From Myxococcales bacterium (lineage in GTDB: Bacteria > Myxococcota_A > UBA9042), in contig SHZF01000008.1 in NCBI GenBank assembly GCA_009692425.1, positions 1-64,000 of the forward strand: a DNA stretch of 64,000 nt, written 5' to 3'. Positions 33,929-39,855 of the stretch are shown here, in pieces (within the stretch, counting starts at the first letter, position 1; each line of letters starts with the position of its first letter). The notes below the pieces were generated by a model. It did no database searches. It was not told the origin of the DNA and saw nothing but the letters and a program-made list of their open reading frames with translations. Both the position numbers and the translations under genes were made by a program.

Positions 33929-36220
33929 TCAGTCGCCAAACCGCGCCCGCGCCTCATCCTTCCACTCGTCGGGCCAGTAATAGAACCCCTGGCACGCAAT
34001 CGAGAAGAAGCACGTCTTGCACGGCTCTTCGTGGCGCCGCCGCGACTGCAGGTAGTCGAACAGGTTCACGTCGTCCATCGTGACGAACACCATGTGGCGT
34101 TCCAGCTTGCCGATGTCGCTGAGCCCGTACTCCTCGTAGCCGGGGATGTAGCACATCGGCAGGTTGATGACCTGGAACTTGATGCGGTCGCCAAACTGGT
34201 CAATCAGCTGCATCACGAGCGGCGCGACCTCGGCCGGGTCGGGCTGGCACTCCGCGGACGCCCGCCCGAAGGGAGTCAGGAACTGCACGTTGCACAGCTT
34301 CACGCCCAGCCGCACCAGCAGTTCGCCATACTCAAGCAGCACCGGACTGTTGACCTTGGTCAGCGTGACGTTGACCCCAAACGCGATGCCGGCCGCGTCG
34401 CACAACGGCCGCGCGTTCTGGATGCCGAGCACCGTCTGGCGAAACGCACCCTTGGCCTGCACGTTCTCTTCGTGCACCGCCTCGTTGGGCCCATGCAGGC
34501 TGACGAGCAGGCTGGTGATGCCCGAACGTACGATCTTCTCTGCGTTCTTCGGCACCGCCATCATGCGGCCATTCGTCGTCAGGTTGATCTGTTGGAAGCC
34601 GAGGTCCTTCGCCCCCGCAATCAGCTTGAGCAGGTCCGGATTCGTGGTCGGCTCGCCGCCGTCGAAGTCGCAGAGATCGAAGCCCTGGTCGCGGCGGTCC
34701 TTCAGGAAGCCGAGTTGGCGTTCGAGGTCGCCTTTCCACGGGCTGCGGTTGCCGGTCGCGCAGAACACGCACTGGTTGTTGCACACGTAGGTCGTGTTCA
34801 TGATGACCTTGCGCGGCTTGCTCACGTCGACCTTCGTCTCCAGCACGCGCTTGGCGGCCCACAGTTCGTTGGCGGTCCAGTCCTTGCCTTGCAGCACGGG
34901 CTTGCCCTGGAAAAGCGGCCCGATATCGCGGTCCTCGCGCGTGGTCCACAGCTGGCGCTCAGTCACCTCGGCGTGCAGCTTCGTGCCGAGGATGGGCGTG
35001 GCGAACTGCACCAGCGGCCGCGCACCGTAGCGCTCGAACAGGTCCCACGCGGCATTCAGCGTGGCGAGGATCTCGGCACGCGTCTCGTCGGGCTGGCCGA
35101 TCATCCAATGGACGACGAGCGGCAGGCCATGGGCAGCGCACCAGCCGGCCACGCGCTCGGTGGCAGCCAGGTCGAAGCGCTTGCCGATCAGGTCATTGGC
35201 CACGCGCTCCGTGGCACTCTCGGCCGACACGCTCAACACCGCGCAGCGCTGCGCCAACCGGTGGACTTGGGCTTGCGTCAACCGATCGGCCCGCATGCCG
35301 TTGGGGAAATCCAGCCGCAGGTCGAGTTTCTCGGCCACGGCCAGCACCGCCTCGAAGTGGGCCTGGTTCACGTTGGCGAGTTCGTCGAGCACGACCAACC
35401 GCCGCACGCCGTAGGTGTCGCGCAGCAAGGTGAAGTGGCGTTCGAGGTACGCCGCGCCGTGCATCCGGTACGACTTGCTGTCGAGGCCGTCCTGGCGCCA
35501 CGGGTTGGCGGTGCAGAACGAGCAGCCGTAGACGCAGCCGCGCGCGGTCTTGACGGCGGCGATCGGCGGCGTGAGGTCGAACATCTCGCGCTTGAAGTCG
35601 CCTTGGGCGGTGCGCTGCAAGAAGCGCTGGAAGGCGGCAAAATCGATGAGGTCGTAGGCCGGCAGCGGCAGTTCGTCGAGGTCGAGGGCCTGGGGCGGCG
35701 CCTTGGCGATGCGCGACATCGGCGTGCGACCGGCCACGAGGTCGTCGACGATCGCGGCGAGCGAGCCCTCCGGTTCGTAGCGCTGGCCCCACGCGATGCC
35801 GAGCTCATCGAGTGCGTTCTCGTCCCATGCGATCGAGTGCATGCCGCCCACGTCGCAGTCGGCCAGCACGACGGGCACCTGGGGCCAACGCGCCTGCAAG
35901 CTCGCGGCCAGCCGCTTGAGTTCGGCAGCCGCCGGGCGCGCGCGCAGCCACGGACTGTGGCCGATCACCACGACGTCGGGCCGTTGCGCGGGCAGGCGGC
36001 CGAGCAGGGTCGCAAGCGGCACGCCCAGGCGCACGAAACGGCCCGCCTCGCGCGTGGCGTTTGAACTGGGCAGGCAGCAGGCATCGAGCACTTCGACGCT
36101 GTGGCCGCGGGCGCGCAGGTCGGCGGCGGCCTGCCACAAGCCGAGGTTGGCGAAGTACGGGTAGTCGATCCAGTCGGCGTGGAGCAGCAAGGGCGGCTGG
36201 ACAAGAAGGGCGCGCGCCAC
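33929..36220 (-). CDS. Tandem radical SAM protein with N-terminal B12-binding-like domain
   Basis: 763 residues from a GTG at 36220 with a GGAG site. Residues 1-165 look like a Rossmann-type cobalamin-binding domain, but the Asp-x-His-x-x-Gly motif is missing. The first radical SAM domain has C229-x3-C233-x2-C236 and the look of the B12-dependent Elp3-type class. A second, different radical SAM domain has C480-x3-C484-x2-C487 followed by DFDGGEPTTNP. The end carries C734-x2-C737-x5-C743, a SPASM-like auxiliary cluster site. Two SAM-cleaving centres plus an auxiliary cluster in one chain is rare. Substrate unknown. It lies 99 bases downstream of kce on the same strand. Confidence 0.87.
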   Translation of the reverse strand: MARALLVQPPLLLHADWIDYPYFANLGLWQAAADLRARGHSVEVLDACCLPSSNATREAGRFVRLGVPLATLLGRLPAQRPDVVVIGHSPWLRARPAAAELKRLAASLQARWPQVPVVLADCDVGGMHSIAWDENALDELGIAWGQRYEPEGSLAAIVDDLVAGRTPMSRIAKAPPQALDLDELPLPAYDLIDFAAFQRFLQRTAQGDFKREMFDLTPPIAAVKTARGCVYGCSFCTANPWRQDGLDSKSYRMHGAAYLERHFTLLRDTYGVRRLVVLDELANVNQAHFEAVLAVAEKLDLRLDFPNGMRADRLTQAQVHRLAQRCAVLSVSAESATERVANDLIGKRFDLAATERVAGWCAAHGLPLVVHWMIGQPDETRAEILATLNAAWDLFERYGARPLVQFATPILGTKLHAEVTERQLWTTREDRDIGPLFQGKPVLQGKDWTANELWAAKRVLETKVDVSKPRKVIMNTTYVCNNQCVFCATGNRSPWKGDLERQLGFLKDRRDQGFDLCDFDGGEPTTNPDLLKLIAGAKDLGFQQINLTTNGRMMAVPKNAEKIVRSGITSLLVSLHGPNEAVHEENVQAKGAFRQTVLGIQNARPLCDAAGIAFGVNVTLTKVNSPVLLEYGELLVRLGVKLCNVQFLTPFGRASAECQPDPAEVAPLVMQLIDQFGDRIKFQVINLPMCYIPGYEEYGLSDIGKLERHMVFVTMDDVNLFDYLQSRRRHEEPCKTCFFSIACQGFYYWPDEWKDEARARFGD

Positions 36221-36319: not shown

Positions 36320-37156
36320 CTAGGCGCGCCCCAGCAGCAACAACCGGGCGTCCGCCACCGATGCCAGCCGCCGCCCACCCGCCGCCGCCAGCGCGACAAC
36401 CTGCTCGACCAGTTCGTACGAGCCCTTGGCCAGGACGCCCTTCGCCACGAAAAGATTGTCCTCCAGCCCGACACGCACGTGCCCGCCGTGCCGGATGGCG
36501 TGGGCGGCAAGCGGCATCTCCCAGCGACCGATGCCCGCCACGCTCCAGGTCGAACCGGCCGGCAGCAGGCTGCGGATGAAATCCAGGTGCTGGACCGTGC
36601 CGCCCATGCCGCCCGGCATCCCGAGCACGAAATTGAAGTGCGCGGGCAGATCGAGCAAGCCGTCCTTGGCCAACCGCAGGGCTGCATCGACCATGCCGGT
36701 ATCGAAGCATTCCACCTCGGGCTTGACGGCGAATTCGCGCAGGCGGGCGGCGATCGCGCGCACGTCCGGCGGCCGGTTCACGAACACTTCGTCGCCGAAG
36801 TTCACGCTGCCGGTCGTCAGCGTCGCCATGTCTGGGCGCAGGCGCACGGCGTCAGCGCGCTCGGCAACGCTCATGCCGACCGCGCCACCGGTCGAGAACT
36901 GCACGAGCATCGGACAGCGCGCCCTGATGCGCTCCATCGTCTCGGCAAACAGGTCCGCACGCTGGCTCGGGCGGCCGTCGGGCTCGCGCACGTGCAGGTG
37001 GACCATCGTCGCGCCGGCCTCCCAGCAGCGCACCGCCTCGTCGGCCAGTTCCGTCGGCGTGTAGGGAATGTGCGGCGTCTGATCGCGAAACACCTCGGCG
37101 CCGCAGATGGCCGCCGTGATCATGAGGGGCGCAGGCGGCATCGCGGGCTCGGACAT
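36320..37156 (-). CDS. kce: 3-keto-5-aminohexanoate cleavage enzyme (BKACE family)
   Basis: 278 residues from ATG 37156 with an AAGGA site. The DUF849/BKACE family is recognised by TAAICGAEVF, the zinc-binding HLHVRE segment, QFSTGGAVGMS and GGHVRVGLEDN. The classical reaction joins 3-keto-5-aminohexanoate and acetyl-CoA to give acetoacetate and 3-aminobutyryl-CoA. BKACE enzymes act on several beta-keto acids, so the substrate is inferred. The gene eleven bases upstream encodes the next enzyme of lysine fermentation, which favours the lysine role. Confidence 0.88.
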   Translation of the reverse strand: MSEPAMPPAPLMITAAICGAEVFRDQTPHIPYTPTELADEAVRCWEAGATMVHLHVREPDGRPSQRADLFAETMERIRARCPMLVQFSTGGAVGMSVAERADAVRLRPDMATLTTGSVNFGDEVFVNRPPDVRAIAARLREFAVKPEVECFDTGMVDAALRLAKDGLLDLPAHFNFVLGMPGGMGGTVQHLDFIRSLLPAGSTWSVAGIGRWEMPLAAHAIRHGGHVRVGLEDNLFVAKGVLAKGSYELVEQVVALAAAGGRRLASVADARLLLLGRA

Positions 37157-37167
37157 GTGCGGTTCCT

Positions 37168-37554
37168 TCACGCTGGGCGGCGCTGTTTGGCGGCCGGCAC
37201 CACGCACGTGCCGACCGCGCGGCACACCACGACCGGCTCGCGCACCACGTCGGCGGCAGAGTCCGAGACGTCGGGCCGCGGCACGATGACCTTGCGCGCC
37301 TCGAAGCGCAGCTTGCGGCTGGTGCGGCCGACGTCGATGATTTCGCCCTCGACCTCGATGAAGTCGCCGGCATGGACCGGGGCGAGAAACTCGACGGACT
37401 CGTACGCGCGGAACAACCCCTCGTCGCCGTCGTGGCGCACGAGCAGTTCGGTGGCCACGTCGCCAAACAGGCCCAACATGCGGGCGCCATCGACGAGGCC
37501 GCCGCCATAATGGGCATCGTGGCTCGACATGCGCAGGCGGATCACGGTTTTCAT
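37168..37554 (-). CDS. kal: 3-aminobutyryl-CoA ammonia lyase
   Basis: 128 residues from ATG 37554. A short hot-dog-fold protein with the Kal-type block [19 protein letters not shown] and an [17 protein letters not shown] strand. Kal removes ammonia from 3-aminobutyryl-CoA to give crotonyl-CoA. With kce directly downstream, the pair forms the last steps of the lysine 2,3-aminomutase fermentation route. The earlier genes (kamA, kamDE, kdd) are not in this window. A small hot-dog protein could act on other acyl-CoA amines. Confidence 0.88.
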
Positions 37555-37560
37555 GCGCGC

Positions 37561-37590
37561 GGCGTAGCATGGTCGGGCCGGCGGCGGCAA
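37561..37590 (-). promoter_or_regulatory. Putative promoter of the kal-kce genes
   Basis: On the minus strand TTGCCG (37590-37585), an 18-bp spacer and TACGCC (37566-37561), only 7 bases before the kal ATG. The -10 is poor and the leader would be very short. Confidence 0.35.
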
Positions 37591-37665
37591 GGACCTGGCT
37601 GTGCCCAGGATTGGTGCCGTGGTCGCCGAGCCGCCGCTGTGCGACGCTGGCGGTCGGGAGGTCCC

Positions 37666-39855
37666 ATGGGTGCGCGACTCGTCCGGTTGGCTCACGCGGT
37701 TTCGATGGCCGGCACGGTCCTGTGGGGTGCGGCGTGCGCAGACTCGATGACCGGCACGGTCCTCCCGGTTCCGCTCGTGGCGACGGGGGGCGACACGGCA
37801 GACACCGACGCGGCGAAGGCGGCGGCGGACGGCCAGCACGATGGCGATGCGAGCGGTGCACAGAGCCTCGACGGCACCGGCTCGGCCGCCGACGGCAGCA
37901 CAGAGGTCGTCGCCGCGCCGCAACCGCCGCGCATCTGCCGGCCCGCCACGGCCTGGCAGCCGGGCACGAAGGCGTTCACCGACGTCACCGAGGCGGTCGG
38001 CATCGGCACCGCGGAGCCGACCGCGACCGGCCTTGGCGTGGGCGGCATTCGCCTGTCGGCCGCAGACCTGGACGGCGATGGCTTGCCCGAACTCGTCGTG
38101 CGCCGCCATGTGCTCGGCCTGCGCGACCCGTTCGAGGCCGGCAAACGCATGACGTGGCTGCTGCACAACGACTCCAAGCCGGGCCCATGGCGCTTTTCGG
38201 ACATCACGCAGTCCAGTGGCCTGCTGCAGACCCGTGACGGCAAGGATGGCCGCCCCACGCACATCGCGGTGTACGGTGACATCGACAACGACGGCGACGT
38301 CGATGTGTTCACCGGCATGAACGTGGCGTTCGACCCGAAGAACGACCCCAACAAGGTCGACGCGTCCGAGGTGATGATCAACGACGGCAAGGCCAAGTTC
38401 ACGCTATCGGCGTTGCCCCAGTTCGCCAGCGCCGACCTGCGCCGTTCGCTCAACGCCGCCACTTTCGTCGACTACGACCGCGACGGCCTGCTCGACCTGT
38501 GGCTCGGCTACGGCAGTTGGGGCACGCAGGGCTTTCCCATCGCGGACCAACTCGTGCGCGGCGACGGCCAGGCCGGGTTCACGACCGTCACCGCCGACGA
38601 GGGCCTGCTGACGAAAGACTGGATCAAGCTCGTCGATGTCCAAATCGGCGCCGCCCACCGCAACACGTGGGGCACGGCGGCGTGCGACGTCAACGATGAC
38701 GGCCACCCGGACCTGCTGACCACGAGCTACGGTCGCTATTTCAATGGCCTGTGGCTGGGCGGCGGCACCAAGGGGACATCCTTTCGCTTCGACGACGTGC
38801 AGATCGAGTCGGGCTGGGGCCGCGACGACGACGACGACTGGACCACGAACTGGAACGCCCAGTGCTACTGCCAGGACAATCCCGCGGCGCCGGAGTGTTC
38901 AAAGGCCCAAAAACCAAAGGTGAACTGCGCGGCGCTCAAGGCGAGTTTCGGCGGCAAGTACCGCTGGGATCATGCCAACGACCGCGAGGCGTGGCGACTG
39001 GGCGGCAACACGGGCACGGGCGTGTGCGGCGATCTCGACCGCGACGGCGACCTCGACTTCCTGGTGGTGACGATCGTCCACTCCGACGTCGGCACGTCGT
39101 CGGACCCCACGCGCATTGTGCGCAACGATGGCACGGGGGGCGGCAAGTCGGGCGGCGTCCCCACCTTCACCCACCTCAAGGACACCGCGTCCGGCCTGCA
39201 GCGCACCTGGCCCGACCCCTTGAACTGGAACGCCGGCGACATCACCGGCGCGCTTTTCGACTTCGACAACGACGGCCGCCTCGACGTGTTGGTGGCGTCG
39301 TCGGACTACCCGGGCACGCGCGCGTTCCTGTTCCGCCAGTTGCCGAGCGGCATGTTCAGCGAGGTTCCGACCCAGGACGGCATCGACTTCCGGCACAGCC
39401 AAGGTGCCGCTATTGCCGATTTCGACGCGGACGGTGACCTCGACGTGGCGCTGGGTCACAGCCTGGCGCGCTGTTCGTCGTCGCCCAAGGAGTGCCAGAA
39501 GACCGAGCAGATCCATGTCTTTCGCAATGACTTGGGCGCCCAGGGCAACTGGCTCCAACTCGACCTGCGCGGTGGCAAGGGCGCGAACCGCAGCGCGATC
39601 GGCGCCCGCGTCCAGATCACGGCGGGCGGGGTCACGCAGACTGCCGAGGTGGGCGGCGGGCACGGTCACTACGGACAGCAGAATGATCTGCTCCAGCATT
39701 TCGGTCTGGGCGCGGCGTGCGACATCGACAAGGTCACCGTGCGCTGGCCCGACGCGGCGGCGACGACCCAGACGTGGGCCGGCGTGCGCGCGAACTACCG
39801 AGTGCGGCTGCGTCAAGGCGACGCGGCGCCGGAGTATGTGGGGATCGCGCAATAG
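37666..39855 (+). CDS. FG-GAP/VCBS repeat lipoprotein with UnbV (ASPIC) domain
   Basis: 729 residues from ATG 37666 with a GGGAGG site; the frame is open upstream without coding character. The signal ends Gly-Ala-Ala-Cys, a plausible lipobox. After a low-complexity linker come at least five calcium-binding DxDxDG-type loops of FG-GAP/VCBS repeats (for example [48 protein letters not shown]), forming a predicted beta-propeller. The C-terminus has the ASPIC/UnbV signature with [10 protein letters not shown] and a [13 protein letters not shown] motif. This is a likely surface-exposed, calcium-stabilised binding protein; the ligand is unknown. Confidence 0.88.

Follow-up and report, generated by a model that had tools for sequence, protein, structure and literature searches.

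A conserved double radical SAM protein of uncultured myxobacteria with a probable role in a partly dispersed His-Xaa-Ser peptide system

The 64,000-nucleotide window considered here (the whole stretch of DNA that was analyzed, lying on contig C59 of the genome G000) encodes a single protein with two radical SAM domains, which raises the questions of whether the double arrangement is genuine, whether both domains serve one pathway, and which substrate they might modify. We found no description of this double enzyme in the literature searched, which comprised few subscription papers or preprints. We refer to the protein as A-S and to its two halves as A and S.

Architecture and conservation of the double enzyme

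The relevant features of the window are as follows.

33929..36220, minus strand: double radical SAM protein (A-S), 763 aa with a GTG start, from its open reading frame and homologue matches
34886..36220, minus strand: half A, residues 1-445, a B12-binding-like Rossmann region (residues ~1-165) plus a radical SAM core; domain borders approximate
35513..35536, minus strand: first [4Fe-4S]/SAM motif, CVYGCSFC, residues 229-236; C229, C233 and C236 kept in 57/57 homologues
33932..34834, minus strand: half S, residues 463-763, a radical SAM core plus a putative C-terminal auxiliary-cluster region
34760..34783, minus strand: second [4Fe-4S]/SAM motif, CNNQCVFC, residues 480-487; C480, C484 and C487 present in 56/57 homologues, all three being Ser in L087
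34151..34153, minus strand: Cys690, putative fourth auxiliary-cluster ligand, invariant in 57/57 homologues
33992..34021, minus strand: auxiliary-cluster motif C734-x2-C737-x5-C743, invariant in 57/57 homologues

The A-S reading frame is GC3-rich, as are other coding genes, and it encodes two CxxxCxxC motifs, whereas 0 of 2000 composition shuffles produced two. Radical_SAM is recognized twice along the protein by Pfam (82.9 bits against a cut-off of 29.5). Each half carries its CxxxCxxC within a Radical_SAM domain, as is required of members of the superfamily. The first-pass annotation of the locus had placed the motifs at residues 229-236 and 480-487 in unlike radical SAM domains, and Pfam, the homologue alignment and the structure model all agree with this. 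Ahead of the first motif it had also described a cobalamin-binding-like domain devoid of DxHxxG, which is borne out by a weak B12-binding match at residues 24-156 (Pfam, 20.1 bits, below the cut-off of 32.1) as well as by fold matches; a sequence scan of A-S returned no DxHxxG motif.

In the AlphaFold2 model of A-S (mean pLDDT 91.2, pTM 0.85), residues 1 to ~470 match AprD4 (Z 26.8, in an alignment covering model residues 1..740), MgmA (Z 25.8), TsrM (Z 23.8) and OxsB (Z 23.5), and CysS is matched too. AprD4 is not known to bind cobalamin. The matches to TsrM, OxsB and CysS assign half A a cobalamin-type N-terminal Rossmann fold, and the model suggests that it shares the B12-type fold of all five enzymes (Z 23-27 over 357-416 residues), whereas its sequence is 12-20% identical to theirs and cobalamin binding by A is putative. 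Because several B12-type radical SAM enzymes, OxsB and TsrM included, are described in PMC13331322 as binding cobalamin without a His ligand, the absence of DxHxxG is no argument against cobalamin in half A.

Model residues ~465-750 match viperin (Z 23.0), SuiB (Z 21.5) and BlsE (Z 20.9), and half S is predicted to share the fold of SuiB, SkfB, BlsE, viperin and anSME (Z 20-23) along with a single putative four-Cys auxiliary site. It differs from these enzymes in the auxiliary pattern itself, C690...C734-x2-C737-x5-C743, and in its sequence (15-20% identity). The C-terminal cysteine set is of the SPASM/twitch kind and would imply a cluster, for which we take C690 and C734-x2-C737-x5-C743 to be the putative ligands, based upon the SPASM/twitch pattern. 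A SPASM-like C-x2-C-x5-C had already been noted after the second motif and proves invariant, whereas the fourth cysteine, C690, had been overlooked. Among 18,950 NCBIfam families, the best match of half S is HxsC4 (8.6e-29), although its 100.7 bits lie below the curated HxsC4 cut-off of 500 bits (NF038332).

Two radical SAM domains are likewise joined in the FO synthase FbiC, a CofG-CofH fusion whose consecutive steps are elsewhere performed by two polypeptides (PMC11917521). By its published description, FbiC resembles A-S in this respect, whereas A-S is distinguished by its B12-type A, its four-Cys S with a putative auxiliary site, and its peptide-system gene context; none of the best 25 of the 63 NCBIfam families matched by A-S is named CofG, CofH or FbiC. 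The description of A-S as one conserved protein with two unlike radical SAM domains, a B12-type A and a twitch/SPASM-like S, is supported.

It is evident that A-S is conserved in many uncultured myxobacterial relatives. Homologues were found in 21/21 same-family relatives examined (61-75% identity, the G015 copy being cut by a contig end) and, at E<=1e-50, in 40 of 52 genomes of the class and 63 of 282 in a sample of the phylum. A scan of named genomes yielded 14 loci; the values are 63-74% for 13 of the records and 42% for the remaining one. The record titles are mostly Myxococcales or Polyangia, together with one Klebsiella pneumoniae that we take for a mislabelled bin. From 70 matches at 69 loci, 57 full-length A-S proteins (27-73% identity) were aligned, the remainder being fragments, split or differently fused. 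The halves reside on separate genes only in a few lineages, such as G058 and G053, where A stands alone as a protein of 470 and 472 aa, respectively (loci L090, L092). It had been proposed that the fusion should be doubted if the halves were usually encoded separately and had been brought together here by an assembly join; instead, the fusion is intact across many independently assembled genomes and, therefore, is not an assembly join.

Partner genes and shuffled fusions

In the operon of family f5, A-S overlaps a gene encoding a ~300-aa radical SAM protein (B), which has its own four-Cys auxiliary pattern, and a methyltransferase gene (C) follows. In family f8, a B12-like radical SAM gene is located where f5 has C. 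Within C, C24 and C101-x2-C104-x5-C110 are invariant among 13/13 aligned sequences, and its C-terminal part was recognized as a class I methyltransferase by a fold search (Z 19.2 to 1vl5) that barely probed the Cys-rich N-terminus.

These components are joined in several other combinations. A is fused to C in G049 and G040 (loci L057, L063), whereas S is fused to C in G041 (L060), where the 5' end is cut by a contig end and the A part is present from residue 283 on. In G058 and G053, S is joined to B (L091, L093) and A forms a protein of its own (L090, L092). A further radical SAM domain, D (CNxxCxFCHT), precedes C in fusion proteins of G195, G172, G131 and others. Because the fusions vary (A-S, A-C, S-B), the gene arrangements argue that A and S are probably separate catalysts in a common pathway and do not form a single, indivisible machine.

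The His-Xaa-Ser genes and their association with A-S

His-Xaa-Ser peptides were predicted bioinformatically by Haft and Basu, as cited in PMC9062424, where HxsB and HxsC are also named, after the same authors, among putative maturases. Our searches of the literature by Hxs names and repeats found no paper that seemed to report an Hxs product, though one may exist elsewhere. The genome that contains the window encodes the following.

C59 (the window): double enzyme A-S
C45:108748-109041: HxsA4 precursor, 90.5 bits (NCBIfam, cut-off 55), or 92.3 bits as an open reading frame
C32: HxsD, 52.6 bits (NCBIfam, cut-off 50)
C32: HxsD-like, 63.3 bits (NCBIfam, cut-off 41)
C32: HxsB, 502.5 bits (NCBIfam, cut-off 370)
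C32, beside the hxs core: orthologues of a600 (a ~600-aa radical SAM protein), n311 and n283
C86:33628-34524: B, 254.7 bits, with CNCRCIGC and C-x2-C-x5-C present
C61:12815-13516: C-like, E 4.1e-19, in a 511-aa protein with C-x2-C-x5-C but without CxxxCxxC

The precursor ends in (HGS)n-W, having 16 HxS units and a C-terminal W, with GGGGAG upstream. The copies of B and C in the window's family (f1) are distant (220-255 bits), and the C matches span only part of the query. HxsC4 was not found in this genome at E<=1e-40, and its n311 orthologue scores 98.5 bits against HxsC, as compared to a cut-off of 267.9. No Hxs gene is linked to A-S in G000, the window, the hxs core and the precursor lying on C59, C32 and C45, respectively. 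The first-pass annotation had reported no precursor gene, which is correct for the window, where a repeat search that also covered the other collected loci returned no HxsA4 repeats, but incorrect for the genome, given the HxsA4 on C45 above its NCBIfam cut-off. Another protein of the same genome, distinct from A-S, likewise contains two CxxxCxxC motifs (C16, L064:9551-11482, plus strand; 643 aa, 34% to its counterpart in G195), a relative of which adjoins an HxsC4-like gene in G210. The His-Xaa-Ser system, judging from these sequences, may be served by several proteins with paired radical SAM domains.

Direct linkage is evident in other genomes. In G214 (L076), hxsD, hxsD-like and hxsB are immediately followed by the double enzyme in one operon (HxsB 475.9 bits, HxsD-like 61.2 bits); the 156-aa first reading frame was named hxsD by its position and a look at its sequence, no family having been reached at 1e-12. 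In 9 genomes from 5 families, 20 kb or less separates A-S from hxsD-like, compared with 0.46 genomes expected under random placement, in a linkage count based upon the 14 genomes with A-S and an Hxs gene seen on one contig, of the 60 positive for both. In G131, HxsC4, HxsA4, HxsB, HxsD-like, HxsD, D-C and a600 are all ~18 kb or less from A-S, while HxsC4 exceeds its cut-off near A-S in G195, G172 and G119, the last of which is among the linked genomes. Peptides of the (HGS)n-W type were found around A-S in other families, and an operon of family f17 comprises HxsD, HxsD-like, C and a600. Within f1, A-S is a solitary gene in most relatives; it is located 10.4 kb from hxsD-like in G007 and 14.2 kb in G009. 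We also encountered a region of ~46 kb in G195 (C1:414000-460000; L099, L100, L074, L101) with more than 10 CxxxCxxC genes, including HxsC4, HxsA4 and A-S, as well as two adjacent HGS-repeat peptides in G203 (L080:2082 and L080:2403, plus strand) situated 6-7 kb from the double enzyme.

When examining co-occurrence over the 282 genomes, it should be kept in mind that these are related and that kinship inflates the profile figures, so that the Fisher p-values of the profile should not be read as probabilities. C is encoded by 62 genomes and by 60 of the 63 A-S carriers, HxsD-like by 95 and 60, and a600 by 94 and 59, respectively. HxsA4 exceeds its cut-off in 90 genomes, 55 of the carriers among them (counts that take in matches summed with in-frame neighbours), and B is present in 52, including 50 carriers (13/63 being without B at the threshold). 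For comparison, one unrelated radical SAM protein of G000 occurs in 4 of 178 genomes, a subset of the 282, all from the window's own family. The eight f17 carriers (G092, G096, G108, G134, G144, G210, G253, G281) are all HxsD-like-positive, whereas the f17 non-carriers listed (G056, G077, G080, G084, G100, G141, G148, G168, G257) are all without HxsD-like; similarly, in f21 both genes occur together in four carriers, whereas G061 and G065 have neither. Eight of the 63 carriers are without HxsA4 above the cut-off (G007, G008, G043, G052, G053, G073, G222, G226). Partial matches are found in G007 and G222 (at contig ends) and in G073, the G052 match reaches 54 bits, and G043 and G053 have no match at E<=0.001; three A-S carriers are 58-68% complete, which accounts for some, but not all, of the gaps. 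Since HxsD-like, HxsA4 and a600 occur together without the double enzyme in 27 genomes, and HxsD-like does so in 35, A-S is an add-on to the system rather than part of its core.

Proposed function and alternative explanations

Based upon these observations, we propose, with a probability of roughly 70%, that A-S serves in Myxococcota as an accessory maturase within a His-Xaa-Ser system of the HxsA4 type that is extended and partly dispersed. Membership of A-S in the extended system is well supported, it is likely that A and S belong to a common pathway, and HxsA4 is, by a modest balance, the favored substrate. The window's genome has HxsA4, HxsB, HxsD and HxsD-like above curated cut-offs, half S is HxsC4-like, and A-S is linked to hxs genes in other genomes. 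Conversely, A-S, B and C fall outside the named components returned by NCBIfam, and the parts of the system are scattered over contigs in G000, with HxsC4 missing at the threshold given above.

Several steps can be envisaged. The leader of HxsA4 would be presented by HxsD/HxsD-like, and A and S would both act on the (HGS)n-W peptide. Half S might catalyze an oxidative side-chain step, either a crosslink or a desaturation, as in SPASM/twitch maturases, whereas half A might contribute a further radical step (an epimerisation, a dehydration or a methylation). C could perform a SAM-dependent methylation. Two consecutive A-S steps on one substrate would be plausible. A broader scenario, which we offer tentatively, is that of a dispersed Myxococcota system with a single (His-Gly-Ser)n-Trp precursor, on which some eight or more radical SAM proteins and a methyltransferase, encoded at many loci, would act in shuffled fusions (A-S, A-C, S-C, S-B, D-C), with A-S modifying the repeats twice in series to yield a heavily modified poly-His product, perhaps metal-binding or redox-active, of a new chemical class. 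If A-S, B and C do belong, the His-Xaa-Ser system would be far larger than its named genes and usually unrecognizable from the genes beside the precursor. It would also provide a defined enzyme set and a simple repetitive substrate for testing two radical SAM reactions, which can be addressed separately because nature supplies forms with a single domain or with one domain dead (L090, L092, L087, L088).

The strongest alternative, which we nevertheless consider unlikely, is that A-S, B and C constitute a separate small-molecule, cofactor or lipid pathway merely co-hosted with Hxs, the hosts being shared since both are found in myxobacteria with an abundance of radical SAM genes. This would agree with the similarity of half A to AprD4, an aminoglycoside enzyme, and CysS, and of half S to the nucleotide enzymes viperin and BlsE, as well as with the lack of linkage between A-S and hxs genes in f1 and several f17 genomes, the house-keeping genes flanking A-S in G092 and f17, and the 35 genomes that encode HxsD-like but not A-S. 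It is at odds with the absence of HxsD-like from only 3/63 carriers, the both-or-neither pattern among the f17 and f21 genomes listed, the G214 operon with hxsB, the f17 operon uniting C with hxsD/hxsD-like, and the position of HxsC4 as the family nearest to S among all 18,950. The first-pass annotation had judged a small-molecule or lipid substrate to be as likely as a peptide; this even balance is not supported, given the HxsA4 and HxsB/HxsD of G000 and the tracking of the peptide system by A-S phylum-wide.

Neighbouring genes were also considered as clues. Two lie upstream of A-S in the window.

36320-37156, minus strand: directly upstream of A-S, a beta-keto acid cleavage enzyme resembling Kce, its 378.2 bits falling slightly short of the cut-off of 382
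within 37168-38262, minus strand: hotdog-fold open reading frame

The pair is reminiscent of lysine fermentation genes, a clue that was set aside, as Kce is not beside A-S in the relatives inspected. A heme link, suggested by CtaA-like and HemE-like neighbours (named by sequence look) in some f17 and f21 loci, is not conserved, and a divergent TPR protein with a MopE-like lipoprotein accompanies A-S in f1 only.

It is considerably less probable that A-S matures some other, undescribed peptide or secreted protein with Hxs as shared helpers, a candidate being the ~1950-aa lipoprotein after C in f1. A secreted protein of ~1815-1974 aa does follow C in 5/5 f1 loci (L152, L153, L154, L161, L163), and secreted proteins are often near A-S in this family, but such neighbours are not conserved beyond f1, these genomes commonly encode large lipoproteins, and HxsA4 exceeds its cut-off in 55/63 carriers. 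The same five C-like genes are also near an MreB-like gene (5/5).

Lastly, the notion that the A-S fusion reflects an error of assembly or annotation, or a duplicate in decay, draws on two copies in G092 whose parts can evidently decay, but is already refuted by the 57 full-length homologues with conserved cysteines from unrelated assemblies and by the confident single structure model. In one of the G092 copies (L087:8905-11241, plus strand), the second-motif cysteines are all Ser (SxxxSxxS), and the other (L088:9427-11733, minus strand) keeps the S half with a first half devoid of CxxxCxxC. As a pair, their sequences suggest that the two activities may be divisible between proteins.
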